Source: Patescibacteria group bacterium
GTDB lineage: Bacteria; Patescibacteriota; Microgenomatia; Woykebacterales; 2-01-FULL-43-14
Length of the DNA stretch: 35,788 nt
Reading direction: 5' to 3'
NCBI GenBank assembly: GCA_023485445.1
Contig: JAMCZT010000010.1
Span: forward strand, 1-35,788
The notes beneath the pieces are model-generated. The model searched no databases. It saw only the letters and a program-made list of their open reading frames with translations, and was not told the origin of the DNA. Below, piece after piece: positions 3,904 through 26,118 of this stretch. The translations under genes were made by a program, and so were the position numbers. How positions within the stretch are numbered: the first letter of the stretch is position 1; every line of letters begins with the position of its first letter.

Positions 3904-4152
3904 TTATCTTTTCGGCCTAGCAACCGACACCGTAACATTTCTTCCATCCATTTGAACCCCGTTAAGTTCTTTAATAGCCTTTTGGGCCGATTCATCGTTT
4001 TCCAACTCTACGAAACCAAATCCCTTACTCTTCCCAGAAAATTTGTCCATAATCACCGCCGCCGAATCAACTTTGCCAAATTTAGAAAACATCTCCATCA
4101 ACTGCTGATCAGTAATACCAAAAGGCAAATTTCCCACGTACAACTTTGTCAT
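3904..4152 (-). CDS. RRM-domain RNA-binding protein
   Basis: 82 residues forming one RNA recognition motif: RNP2 LYVGNL near residues 4-9, RNP1 KGFGFVEL near 43-50, and ending in basic ARPKR. This is the small stand-alone RRM protein found in cyanobacteria and many CPR genomes, which binds single-stranded RNA and is often linked to cold or mRNA handling. The ATG at 4152 is chosen because AAGGAGGT at 4161-4168 lies eight bases before it; the reading frame stays open nine codons further without another good start. Confidence 0.95.
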   Translation of the reverse strand: MTKLYVGNLPFGITDQQLMEMFSKFGKVDSAAVIMDKFSGKSKGFGFVELENDESAQKAIKELNGVQMDGRNVTVSVARPKR

Positions 4153-4230
4153 TCTAAAACACCTCCTTGTAACTCTCATCTTAAGATTAACCTAAGTTAT
4201 GTAGCAACAGCTAAGCTAATACAAGAAAGG

Positions 4231-22879: not shown

Positions 22880-23722
22880 CTAGACCATGTCCACGAATTT
22901 TTTTGTCATCTCCGCAACCAAAGCATAGTTTGCTTTGAGACCCTCCATTGTCAAGCTCCCATCCCGAAAGGTCTGTTTATCAAGTAGTTGCGAGGAATCT
23001 CCGGCAATTACCAACTGAAATTTATCCACCAAACAAATCCGCCAGGAATCGCTGTCGAGAATATCCCCTACAACCAGACGACCATCTCCGGTTTGACCAA
23101 CTTCAATTTTGAGGTCAAGAATTACAAGATCCAGTTTGGCCAGAGCCCGCTCAAGCGTAAGGAAGGTCTCTTCAAGAAGGCCTTGCAGCTCTTGATAGCT
23201 AAAGGGCACCGCAAGAGTCTCGACGGAAAGACTTCCCAAGTAGCTATCTTTTCCAAACAAGGGCTGGTGGGCACGGTAGAGGTAGAAACAGCGTTCAAGA
23301 GTATCCCACAGCATTAGAGGATCATGCCTAGCGTCATCCTTGTAAAAGAACTCCGTTCTCAGCTGCTCGAACTGTTGGCCCCTCTTAACCATAGGGCATC
23401 TCTCTAGGAACGAGCCAAAGGCAATTCGCCTGGCCACCAGCTCGATCGGAATCATCCGGAGACGAAGCGCCCGGAACGTTACATCGTCGACCTGATCAAC
23501 AAAATGTGTTGGTATCCCAGCTGATTCGAGTAGTCGGAAACAGTTGCGGGCCGTTTGAGTAGAGTAGCGTGCTTTATCAGTCATTTCGTCCCGCTTTGCG
23601 CCGTCCCCGGCAGTGATCGCATCTTTACTCCGAATCAATACCATCTTCTCATTTTTTGGATCTGCATAGATCTTCTTGGTTTTGCCTTCTGCCACAAGGT
23701 GTCCTACAGGCACTAGATTCAT
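22880..23722 (-). CDS. purC: SAICAR synthetase
   Basis: 280 residues. The N-terminal VAEGKTKKIYADPKNE strand-loop and RSKDAITAGDGAKRDE form the ATP site, then PIELVARRIAFGSFL is the family signature, and LDLVILDLKIEVG with VGDILDSDSWRI carries the metal- and substrate-binding acids. It joins CAIR and aspartate to give SAICAR. The length is slightly above the 230-260 of many bacterial forms. Its ATG overlaps the purE stop (ATGA). GC by eye is about 53%, above the 38-42% of genes outside the purine block, suggesting import. Confidence 0.95.
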   Translation of the reverse strand: MNLVPVGHLVAEGKTKKIYADPKNEKMVLIRSKDAITAGDGAKRDEMTDKARYSTQTARNCFRLLESAGIPTHFVDQVDDVTFRALRLRMIPIELVARRIAFGSFLERCPMVKRGQQFEQLRTEFFYKDDARHDPLMLWDTLERCFYLYRAHQPLFGKDSYLGSLSVETLAVPFSYQELQGLLEETFLTLERALAKLDLVILDLKIEVGQTGDGRLVVGDILDSDSWRICLVDKFQLVIAGDSSQLLDKQTFRDGSLTMEGLKANYALVAEMTKKFVDMV

Positions 23723-24234
23723 TCCTCTTCTCCTTCAAACGAGAATATTCCGATTTCTGCAGGCGTCTCTTCTAGGCTTTCTCTCAAATAGCGTTTGTAA
23801 GCCAGTCGAACCTCAGGATCAACCTTCGCCACAATTTGAATAGCCAGAAGAGCAGCATTGGCTAATCCCGCCTTACCCATGCCCGCATACGCCACGGGAA
23901 CACCTTTCGGGTTACGGGTAATCGTAAGTAGCGCATCAAGACCATCGAGCTCTCCCGCAACTAAAGCCACCCCGATAACTGTAAGGCCACGAACCTTAGA
24001 GGCTACCGCCCCCGGTAAAAGTGCGCTCATTGACGCCATGCAGATAAAGGCCTCTGCCCCTTCGGCCTCTTTCCTCACACAATACTCAGCCAACCTTGCC
24101 GCATGGCGATGGGCGGAAATAACGGAGACCTCGTAAGTTACCTTACACTTTTGCAAGATCTCCAACATCCCAGATTCTTTCATTACCTTCTCATCACTTC
24201 TGCTGCCCATAATTATGGGGACTTGATGTGCCAT
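23719..24234 (-). CDS. purE: N5-CAIR mutase or AIR carboxylase (PurE)
   Basis: 171 residues. IIMGSRSDEKVM opens the fold, VSVISAHRHA carries the conserved catalytic His, and LPGAVASKVRGLTVIGVAL with NPKGVPVAYAG completes the active site. No purK lies beside it, so it could be a class II PurE that carboxylates AIR directly with CO2, but class needs a tree. The ATG at 24234 has AAGGAG seven bases upstream; the frame is open six codons further without a good site. Its leader carries the hairpin shared with purH, so it should be regulated with purH. Confidence 0.95.
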   Translation of the reverse strand: MAHQVPIIMGSRSDEKVMKESGMLEILQKCKVTYEVSVISAHRHAARLAEYCVRKEAEGAEAFICMASMSALLPGAVASKVRGLTVIGVALVAGELDGLDALLTITRNPKGVPVAYAGMGKAGLANAALLAIQIVAKVDPEVRLAYKRYLRESLEETPAEIGIFSFEGEEE

Positions 24235-24241
24235 TTTCTCA

Positions 24242-24285
24242 CTCCTTCTCAAAAAAATATCAAGCCAATCGAGAGCAGGCTTGAT
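24242..24285 (-). promoter_or_regulatory. Putative RNA switch in the purE leader
   Basis: On the mRNA ATCAAGCC (24278-24285) pairs with GGCTTGAT (24259-24266) around the 11-base loop TGCTCTCGATT. Seven U then lead to UUUGAGA (24247-24253), which overlaps the SD AAGGAG. Loop bases 24269-24274 can pair with 24247-24252 (six pairs, one G-U), giving an H-type pseudoknot. The hairpin with its U-run can also read as an intrinsic terminator. Near-identical parts occur before purH. Confidence 0.6.
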
Positions 24286-24296
24286 TAATTAAATTA

Positions 24297-24325
24297 ATAT
24301 TAAGCCAAAATCAAGCAAAAGTAAA
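24297..24325 (-). promoter_or_regulatory. Promoter for purE-purC
   Basis: Reverse strand TTTACT (24320-24325), 17 bases, TAATAT (24297-24302). Transcription from about 24290 places the shared hairpin about five bases from the RNA 5' end. Confidence 0.55.
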
Positions 24326-24340
24326 TCCCTTCAAAGCATG

Positions 24341-24367
24341 AAAAAGCTCTGATCTTTCGACCAGAGC
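24341..24367 (-). terminator. Terminator after purH
   Basis: A nine-pair stem GCTCTGGTC/GATCAGAGC with a GAAA tetraloop, followed by five T on the reverse strand. It separates purH from purE-purC. Confidence 0.85.
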
Positions 24368-24393
24368 CTTGTGTAATCTCGCAAAAAACAATA

Positions 24394-26019
24394 TCAGTGT
24401 CTGAAGCCTCGCGCTTTTTTATCAGAAAGTGAATACCTAGTGACACCTCGCTCCTTAAAGATCTCAAAAACTTCAGAATCTCTGACAGAACCGCTGGTAA
24501 TGAAAACGATCGCCGCTTTAGCGTTCACGATAATCATCGCCCCGTCAATTTCTGGCAGAAAGCTATCGCTTGCCACGGCGGCCCCGGCAGTATTGTGGCC
24601 ATTTTTTGTCGCGTTCCAAACCGCCACTTCGCAGCAATCAACACGAGCCTTCTGACCAACTCCGTTCCCGATCAGCTGGCCATTCAACACGAAGGTCACT
24701 GTGTTACTCGTACTTGTCCAGCAAATCGCCGTCGCCTGAATCAGGTCTTCGAGCTGTTGCGGAGTCGCCGCCCCGCACTGGTCCAGTTCGGAATCCCGCA
24801 GATTAAGGATATTCGTGTTACTTGGTTGAAGAAGAACGCCCCCGCGAACCCGACGGAAATGAATGGCCGTATCCAGACAATTTTCGTCGAGATTTTCCAA
24901 GGCCTTGTTTCGAACGAGTCGACATTTACTGCGAGTGCCTAGGACTTCAATCGCCTTAGGTGTAAAACCAGGCGCCACAACAGTGTCGAGACGACGCTTT
25001 TTCTCGGATTCATAGCAAAGCAGGGTTTCCGCATCCTCTCCATCGAGCTCAAAATTGCTCATAACCACCCCACCGAGAAGGGCAATACGATCCCCAGTCA
25101 CCATCTTCTGGAGTGCTTCTTTTGAACTTTTCCAGCTCACTCCCATTCCGCAGGCGTTTCCATGTTTGACCCCAACGACAATAAACGGCGTCGCACTAAA
25201 GTTCTTGTAAAACATGGCGGCGGTCAGAGTAACGGTAGACAAGGCCCGATCAGTATCGAGAATGTTGTTGTAGCTTCTGGGCTGACCGGAGACGACCTGG
25301 AACTTATCCATCGCCAGAGGATCATCGTTTGGCTGGTCTATTCGGTGAAACTCCGCCGGCACCTGGTGCTTGTTTTCCCCGTAGAGCAATCCTTCCAACA
25401 GCTCGGTGAAAAGCGACCAATACCTGCCCCGACTTAAGTATCTCGCTGAGGTATCGACGTACTTAGCCACGTAGCGCTCAGCTTTGGCTGCCAAAGCCCT
25501 CAAGAATTCTTCTGCGTCAGGTCGACCCTCCCTCAACCAGGCGATAACCCTGTCCCAATCATCTGGGTCGCAAACCACGATCCGCCACCCTTTGGCCCCC
25601 GCAGGAGGGTAACCCTTGGCCCCCATTCGCGCCATCAGCGGTCCACCAATGTCGATCTTTTCGATAACTGAAGCGAGGGTGCTGCCAATTTTTTCGATTT
25701 CTCCTTTCAAGTCGTAGAAATTGACGTAGATGAAATCGAAGTAAGGAACACCTTCTTCCTCGAGAATCGCTAGATCTTCTGGAATGTTCCTTGCCAAGCA
25801 ACCCTCTGCGAACGGCCGGGAAATAGAAGCCACTCGGTGATTAAATACCGGAGGTCCTCCCACTAAAGGGCTTATATCCCTGGCTGGAACACCGTTTTCG
25901 TTAAGCTTCCGAGCCGACCCTTCCGTTCCCCAGAATTCACAGTCTTCGATCGCCATCAGCTCTCTAGCTTGTTCCGGCAACCTGGTCTTGTCCGCAATCG
26001 AGACAAAAACCCTCATCAT
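24394..26019 (-). CDS. purH: Divergent PurH: AICAR transformylase / IMP cyclohydrolase
   Basis: 541 residues in the two-domain PurH order. The N-terminal MGS-like cyclohydrolase domain has GTEGSARKL, VNFYDLKG and IDIGGPLMARMGAKG. The C-terminal transformylase has LLYGENKHQ, VKHGNACGMG (Lys285, His286) and GNGVGQKARVD. The transformylase Lys-His pair is intact. In the cyclohydrolase the canonical RVKTLHP reads RVASISR, so the lysine equivalent to human ATIC Lys66 is Ala64; Tyr, Asp and the second Lys seem kept. Transformylase activity is likely; cyclohydrolase activity is open. GC is about 55-57% in sampled lines, far above the flanks. ATGs at 26019 and 26016 are both possible. Confidence 0.92.
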   Translation of the reverse strand: MMRVFVSIADKTRLPEQARELMAIEDCEFWGTEGSARKLNENGVPARDISPLVGGPPVFNHRVASISRPFAEGCLARNIPEDLAILEEEGVPYFDFIYVNFYDLKGEIEKIGSTLASVIEKIDIGGPLMARMGAKGYPPAGAKGWRIVVCDPDDWDRVIAWLREGRPDAEEFLRALAAKAERYVAKYVDTSARYLSRGRYWSLFTELLEGLLYGENKHQVPAEFHRIDQPNDDPLAMDKFQVVSGQPRSYNNILDTDRALSTVTLTAAMFYKNFSATPFIVVGVKHGNACGMGVSWKSSKEALQKMVTGDRIALLGGVVMSNFELDGEDAETLLCYESEKKRRLDTVVAPGFTPKAIEVLGTRSKCRLVRNKALENLDENCLDTAIHFRRVRGGVLLQPSNTNILNLRDSELDQCGAATPQQLEDLIQATAICWTSTSNTVTFVLNGQLIGNGVGQKARVDCCEVAVWNATKNGHNTAGAAVASDSFLPEIDGAMIIVNAKAAIVFITSGSVRDSEVFEIFKERGVTRYSLSDKKARGFRH

Positions 26020-26029
26020 TGACCTACAT

Positions 26030-26077
26030 CTCCTTTCTCAAATAAAAATATCAAGCCAATTTAAGAGCAGGCTTGAC
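26030..26077 (-). promoter_or_regulatory. Putative RNA switch in the purH leader
   Basis: On the mRNA TCAAGCC (26070-26076) pairs with GGCTTGA (26051-26057), with a G-U pair outside, around the 12-base loop TGCTCTTAAATT. A U-rich tract leads to UUUGAGA (26036-26042), whose last A begins the SD AAAGGAG (26030-26036). Loop bases 26060-26066 can pair with all seven tail bases (one G-U). The order and most bases match the purE leader. Confidence 0.6.
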
Positions 26078-26080
26078 TTC

Positions 26081-26096
26081 TTAACACTAATGTTAA
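26081..26096 (-). promoter_or_regulatory. Operator-like inverted repeat on the purH -10 box
   Basis: TTAACA and TGTTAA arms, four bases apart, cover the -10 hexamer and the expected transcription start. It could bind a repressor. The purE promoter has no equivalent repeat. Confidence 0.35.
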
Positions 26097-26118
26097 ATTA
26101 AAAGGGGAGAAATGTCAA
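26090..26118 (-). promoter_or_regulatory. Promoter for purH
   Basis: Reverse strand consensus TTGACA (26113-26118), 17 bases, TAACAT (26090-26095). Transcription from about 26083 gives a leader of about 64 bases holding the shared hairpin. Confidence 0.7.

Follow-up and report, generated by a model that had tools for sequence, protein, structure and literature searches.

Organization of the two purine units

A Pfam domain search of the window (the whole stretch of 35,788 nucleotides that was analysed) identified two separate minus-strand units, purH and purE-purC, whose products carry out the finishing part of purine synthesis (the late IMP steps). Each unit is preceded by a compact leader of ~45 nt, spanning 26077-26030 at purH and 24285-24242 at purE-purC on the minus strand. 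The initial annotation had described these leaders as nearly identical, and we confirmed this and their coordinates base by base (Table 1). The annotation had also put a promoter before each leader. Both could be placed, the purE promoter being the weaker and found by eye, and the promoter positions predict transcription to start ~6–7 nt before the stem at both leaders. A perfect 6-4-6 palindrome, TTAACA-TTAG-TGTTAA (26084-26099, minus strand), contains the purH -10 box; no clear counterpart was found at purE.

Table 1 Features of the purH and purE-purC units and of their leaders
Feature	Position	Strand	Basis or remark
purH promoter TTGACA-17-TAACAT	26118-26090, within 26084..26118	-	Consensus scan, 10/12
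purH S1 5′ arm TCAAGCC	26070..26076	-	Lengthened by G26077-U26050
purH loop TGCTCTTAAATT	26058..26069	-	26066-26060 (TCTTAAA) complementary to tail
purH S1 3′ arm GGCTTGA	26051..26057	-	Base-by-base check
purH U-rich tract TATTTTTA, putative L3	26043..26050	-	Base-by-base check
purH tail TTTGAGA, putative S2 3′ strand of pseudoknot	26036..26042	-	Base-by-base check
purH Shine-Dalgarno (SD) AGGAG	26030..26034	-	Base-by-base check
purH (AICARFT/IMPCHase, 541 aa)	24394..26019	-	PF01808, E 4e-52; ATG 26019
purH intrinsic terminator GCTCTGGTC-GAAA-GATCAGAGC-TTTTT	24341..24367	-	Read by eye; divides purH from purE-purC
Probable purE promoter TTTACT-17-TAATAT	24297..24325	-	Weak, 8/12; by eye, absent from promoter-scan list
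purE S1 5′ arm TCAAGCC	24278..24284	-	Lengthened by A24285-U24259
purE loop TGCTCTCGATT	24267..24277	-	24274-24269 (TCTCGA) complementary to tail
purE S1 3′ arm GGCTTGA	24260..24266	-	Base-by-base check
purE U-rich tract TATTTTT, putative L3	24253..24259	-	Base-by-base check
purE tail TTGAGA, putative S2 3′ strand of pseudoknot	24247..24252	-	Base-by-base check
purE SD AGGAG	24242..24246	-	Base-by-base check
purE (AIR carboxylase)	23719..24234	-	PF00731, E 1.4e-36; ATG 24234
purC (SAICAR synthetase)	22880..23722	-	PF01259; overlaps purE stop
Terminator after purC	22859-22829	-	Terminator scan

The control sample of the same genome covered ~140 kb, made up of the loci of purB and purD together with a number of sampled stretches. 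Both purB (L097) and purD (L108) have SDs, and the leader hairpin was looked for at these two loci and not found, leaving the leader confined in this genome to the steps AIR to SAICAR (purE, purC) and AICAR to IMP (purH). PurB is needed also for the conversion of IMP to AMP, and this role in AMP synthesis may explain why purB has no leader. The AIRS_C domain of PurM and PurL was searched for in the assembly, which is 88.6% complete, and not found; with purD, purE, purC, purB and purH present, this reflects either a gapped pathway or a gap in the assembly.

Composition and boundaries of the leader

The element common to both leaders reads TCAAGCC-TGCTCT-(loop)-ATT-GGCTTGA-TATTTTT-(n)-TTGAGA and adjoins AGGAG. 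Its stem, UGC, UCU and UUGAGA are free of differences between the copies, and the loop-tail pairing is retained. A strict core pattern matched twice in the window and in none of 100 shuffles, and among the 253 leader pairs of the window the purH/purE pair scored 37, the next best 15. Similarity between the flanks did not exceed shuffle level (p = 0.12 for the promoter region, p = 0.58 further upstream and p = 0.73 post-SD). With such flanks and a shared segment that stands out from all other leader pairs and runs from just after the predicted start to the SD, the common unit is real, sharply bounded and coincident with the 5′ UTR. We also considered whether the purH copy is a mere terminator of tRNA-Leu and rejected this: each copy abuts an SD, and the one at purE is located beyond a terminator that belongs to purH.

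Hairpin and possible loop-tail pairing

Sequence identity, boundaries, position, hairpin and complementarity are directly seen in the two leaders. The hairpin of 7–8 bp has folding z-scores of -2.94 and -2.76 against shuffles. Loop bases can pair with the tail, as first annotated, over 7 bp in purH (26066-26060 with 26042-26036, UCUUAAA/UUUGAGA) and 6 bp in purE (24274-24269 with 24252-24247, UCUCGA/UUGAGA), each with one G-U pair, and a check of the coordinates confirmed both complementary stretches. The putative S2 helix abuts the SD; the overlap between UUUGAGA and the SD that had been noted amounts to at most one A of an extended SD.

We scored the pseudoknot with a simple custom measure, in which the nearest-neighbour stacking energies of both helices are summed with no loop penalties. 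Each leader reached ~-23.4, a value that no other gene leader in the window attained (next, -20.6), and in a sample of the same genome this value was reached or exceeded by 2 of 147 other leaders. When the tail was shuffled with the hairpin given, an equal loop-tail helix arose with p = 0.09 for purH and p = 0.24 for purE; when the loop was shuffled, an equally strong helix arose with p = 0.02–0.07. By itself, then, the loop-tail pairing is weakly significant. Two paired positions differ between the copies with pairing kept, as had been pointed out, but the changes are one-sided (C-G to U-G and G-U to A-U) and not compensatory, and the two copies are not independent of each other. An H-type pseudoknot beside the SD is thus plausible from the complementarity of loop and tail, though the pairing is weakly significant, stems from two non-independent copies and is without comparative support. 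When longer segments were folded, structures that take in the coding region competed with the hairpin, and at purH the U-tract has a possible partner in the 5′ end AAGAA. No single conserved alternative structure emerged from local folding of leader and coding region together.

Search for further copies

A covariance model was built from the purH and purE copies. In the 899-kb assembly of the same genome it found these two copies only, at 53 and 73 bits, with the next match at 16 bits. The search of pur leaders across the phylum that the initial annotation had called for was run on two overlapping sets, of 374 class and 380 phylum genomes (more than 700 in all), and returned no homologue: outside the own genome, matches stayed at chance level (≤34 bits), and those inspected were a terminator behind a tRNA or sites inside coding DNA. 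The model likewise had no match in the 49 genomes of the class of G567, a set without a positive control. No match elsewhere was found with the exact leader pattern in 94 relatives, nor any with two leader patterns in viral contigs. The leader was absent, by eye and by covariance model, upstream of ~60 PurH homologues, and by eye upstream of several purE and purC homologues. No set searched contained a homologue from which covariation in the leader fold could be read. A literature search found no description of the element.

PurH itself is ~25–32% identical to homologues of its own class and at best 46% identical to homologues within the phylum. The nearest homologues (up to 46% identity) have different leaders; they include that of G419, a genome in which purE, purC and purH form one contiguous operon. 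A PurH search of the genome contigs gave one distant relative of 29% identity, and PurH was absent from two other genomes of the same family. That PurH is this far from its own class (25–32%), with closer homologues (up to 46%) in other classes of the phylum, suggests transfer.

Comparison with known RNA families

Neither leader matched a relevant Rfam family, at gathering thresholds or at E-values up to 10. The ZTP class senses ZMP/AICAR, the latter being the PurH substrate. The ZTP (pfl), PRPP and purine riboswitches share with the leaders the control of purine genes and differ in having larger aptamers; the Rfam models for ZTP, PRPP and guanine-adenine riboswitches gave no match to the leaders in cmscan at E up to 10.

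The closest resemblance is to preQ1-I, whose curated model (RF00522) also had no match in the leaders, at gathering or at E up to 10. Among types I–III the likeness is chiefly to type III, with a short H-type pseudoknot, here putative, at or over the SD; the pyrimidine-rich stem-loop, and in preQ1-I the control of translation by SD occlusion, are further points of likeness (PMC11625349). The corresponding feature in our leaders is the possible 6–7 bp loop-tail helix next to the SD (shuffle p = 0.02–0.24). In preQ1-I an AC or UC stands before the P1 3′ strand and supplies the specificity cytosine, and L3 is A-rich (PMC11625349). The leaders, in contrast, have ATT before GGC, so that this strand is preceded by UU with no AC/UC; their L3 is U-rich, UAUUUUU(A), and their genes belong to purine rather than queuosine synthesis. 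The view that the leader is not a known purine, PRPP, ZTP or preQ1 class is therefore upheld by the lack of an Rfam match and by the failure of preQ1-I on the features compared. The purS motif (WRC-75-1), a weak riboswitch candidate from Corynebacterium with few representatives, is likewise found in the leader of a purine-synthesis operon and has a loop that is possibly anti-SD, but its structure is complex and it belongs to another phylum and lies upstream of FGAM synthase, a distinction that we draw by description only (PMC11109978).

Regulatory interpretation

A regulatory element common to both units is likely. It is supported by the precisely bounded leader, its occurrence at exactly two units of IMP synthesis and its absence from Rfam. 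The most likely reading, in which our confidence is about evenly balanced, is a lineage-specific cis-acting RNA leader that co-ordinates the translation of purH and purEC. An RNA element acting after initiation beside the SD fits best because conservation extends over loop, U-tract and tail as far as the SD. We infer the transcription start, pseudoknot formation, translational control and the nature of the signal as follows. The ~45-nt leader, at the 5′ end of the mRNA and present once per late-IMP unit, would act on translation initiation, its hairpin of 7–8 bp presenting the pyrimidine-rich sequence UGCUCU in its loop. The RNA would alternate between two states. With the loop paired to the UU(U)GAGA tail, a compact H-type pseudoknot would lie directly against the SD and impede 30S binding; without this pairing, tail and SD would be free. 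Which state prevails might depend on a signal shared by the two units, a metabolite of the purine pathway or a loop-reading RNA-binding protein, and the levels of PurE, PurC and PurH would thereby be matched. Against an RNA leader count the lack of homologues found, the weak loop-tail pairing, the competing folds and the absence of the leader from purB and purD; nor is it easy to see where, in so short an element, an aptamer pocket would lie.

The genome employs at least one other RNA leader, which is a point in favour of the RNA reading: a T-box leader at L103:11125-10862 (minus strand, contig C8; 79.5 bits with E 1e-17, against a gathering score of 93), which precedes an unknown ORF of 140 aa. 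The window also encodes a small RRM-domain RNA-binding protein (3904-4179, minus strand), a conceivable trans-acting factor for pyrimidine-rich loops, though nothing seen here ties it to the leaders.

The initial annotation went further and proposed a candidate new purine RNA switch, with a metabolite or protein sensed there coupling the two operons. Its common regulatory element is supported, whereas the riboswitch has neither comparative support nor a homologue. We regard a ligand-binding riboswitch as improbable, and just as improbable its specific form, a new ~45-nt H-type pseudoknot that would respond to a late purine intermediate (AIR, SAICAR, ZMP or IMP) by closing both SDs. As it stands, the leader is a new candidate of a known kind of element, the cis-acting mRNA leader, and is not established as a new class. 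Regulation in small-genome, mostly uncultured bacteria is little explored; if the co-ordination of two late purine units by a 45-nt leader is true, it would be among the smallest cis-regulatory RNAs, and if the leader binds a late purine intermediate, it would represent a new riboswitch class.

Alternatively, the repeat TCAAGCC-N11/12-GGCTTGA, at about +7 to +32 of both promoters, might be a DNA operator for a dimeric purine-gene repressor, with an RNA fold that is incidental. PurR-type DNA operators are inverted repeats at pur promoters, and this likeness extends to the leader repeat; its sequence is, to our knowledge, unlike theirs. The operator is still a serious competitor, as a repressor site too would take the form of a perfect inverted repeat equidistant from two promoters: the 7-bp arms are perfect and lie equally far (13–14 bp) from both -10 boxes, differences between the copies within the repeat are confined to the spacer, and the number and location of the copies also fit a two-site regulon. 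We nevertheless consider it rather unlikely. The spacer differs by 1 bp between the copies, and conservation covers most of it (TGCTCT..ATT) and continues beyond the repeat to the SD, with a U-tract and tail for which an operator has no need. PurR-type operators differ in this reach of conservation, and no repressor was identified in the analysis; no obvious candidate for a purine repressor gene adjoins either unit.

Unlikely, and less probable than the operator, is a passive leader spread by a short duplication, in which a 5′-terminal hairpin would protect the mRNA or insulate it from upstream read-through and a U-rich tract would enhance ribosome binding, with no sensing. The combination of hairpin, U-run and SD does occur elsewhere in the genome, at nusA in L100 and, by a loose rule, at 11 of 69 SD-preceded genes, and 24% of tail shuffles do as well as the real purE tail in pairing with the loop. 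Such similar layouts caution against inferring function from layout alone. Yet the loop UGCUCU and the tail are kept though the flanks are unrelated, which a passive leader would not require unless the duplication were very recent.

The weakest reading, which we think very unlikely, makes the hairpin and U-run an intrinsic terminator set by a ligand or protein: an 8-bp stem is indeed followed directly by AUUUUUUU (purE) or AUUUUUAUUU (purH), but the loop of 11–12 nt and the A/U-rich stem base are poorly suited, the 6–7 nt before the stem are too short for an antiterminator and none is visible, and the loop-pairing tail is made only after the U-run. A terminator scan allowing loops of 3–8 nt did not report the leader hairpins, whose loops are of 11–12 nt. 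Attenuation through the U-run had been suggested earlier; the loop-tail helix is unlikely to serve it, as transcription would end before reaching the tail, which follows the U-run, and the suggestion found no comparative support. For the cis-acting RNA leader we accordingly favour control of translation over attenuation, because the tail that would pair with the loop emerges only once the U-run has been made, and the hairpin is poorly suited as a terminator.

The nusA-like gene itself (L100:165-295, contig C4 of the same genome) is served by a promoter of its own and carries a strong hairpin, TTGAGGTGGGA-AGTAAG-TCCCACCTTAA, then TTTTT and, directly ahead of the start codon, AAGGAGG; this arrangement might be a nusA attenuator.
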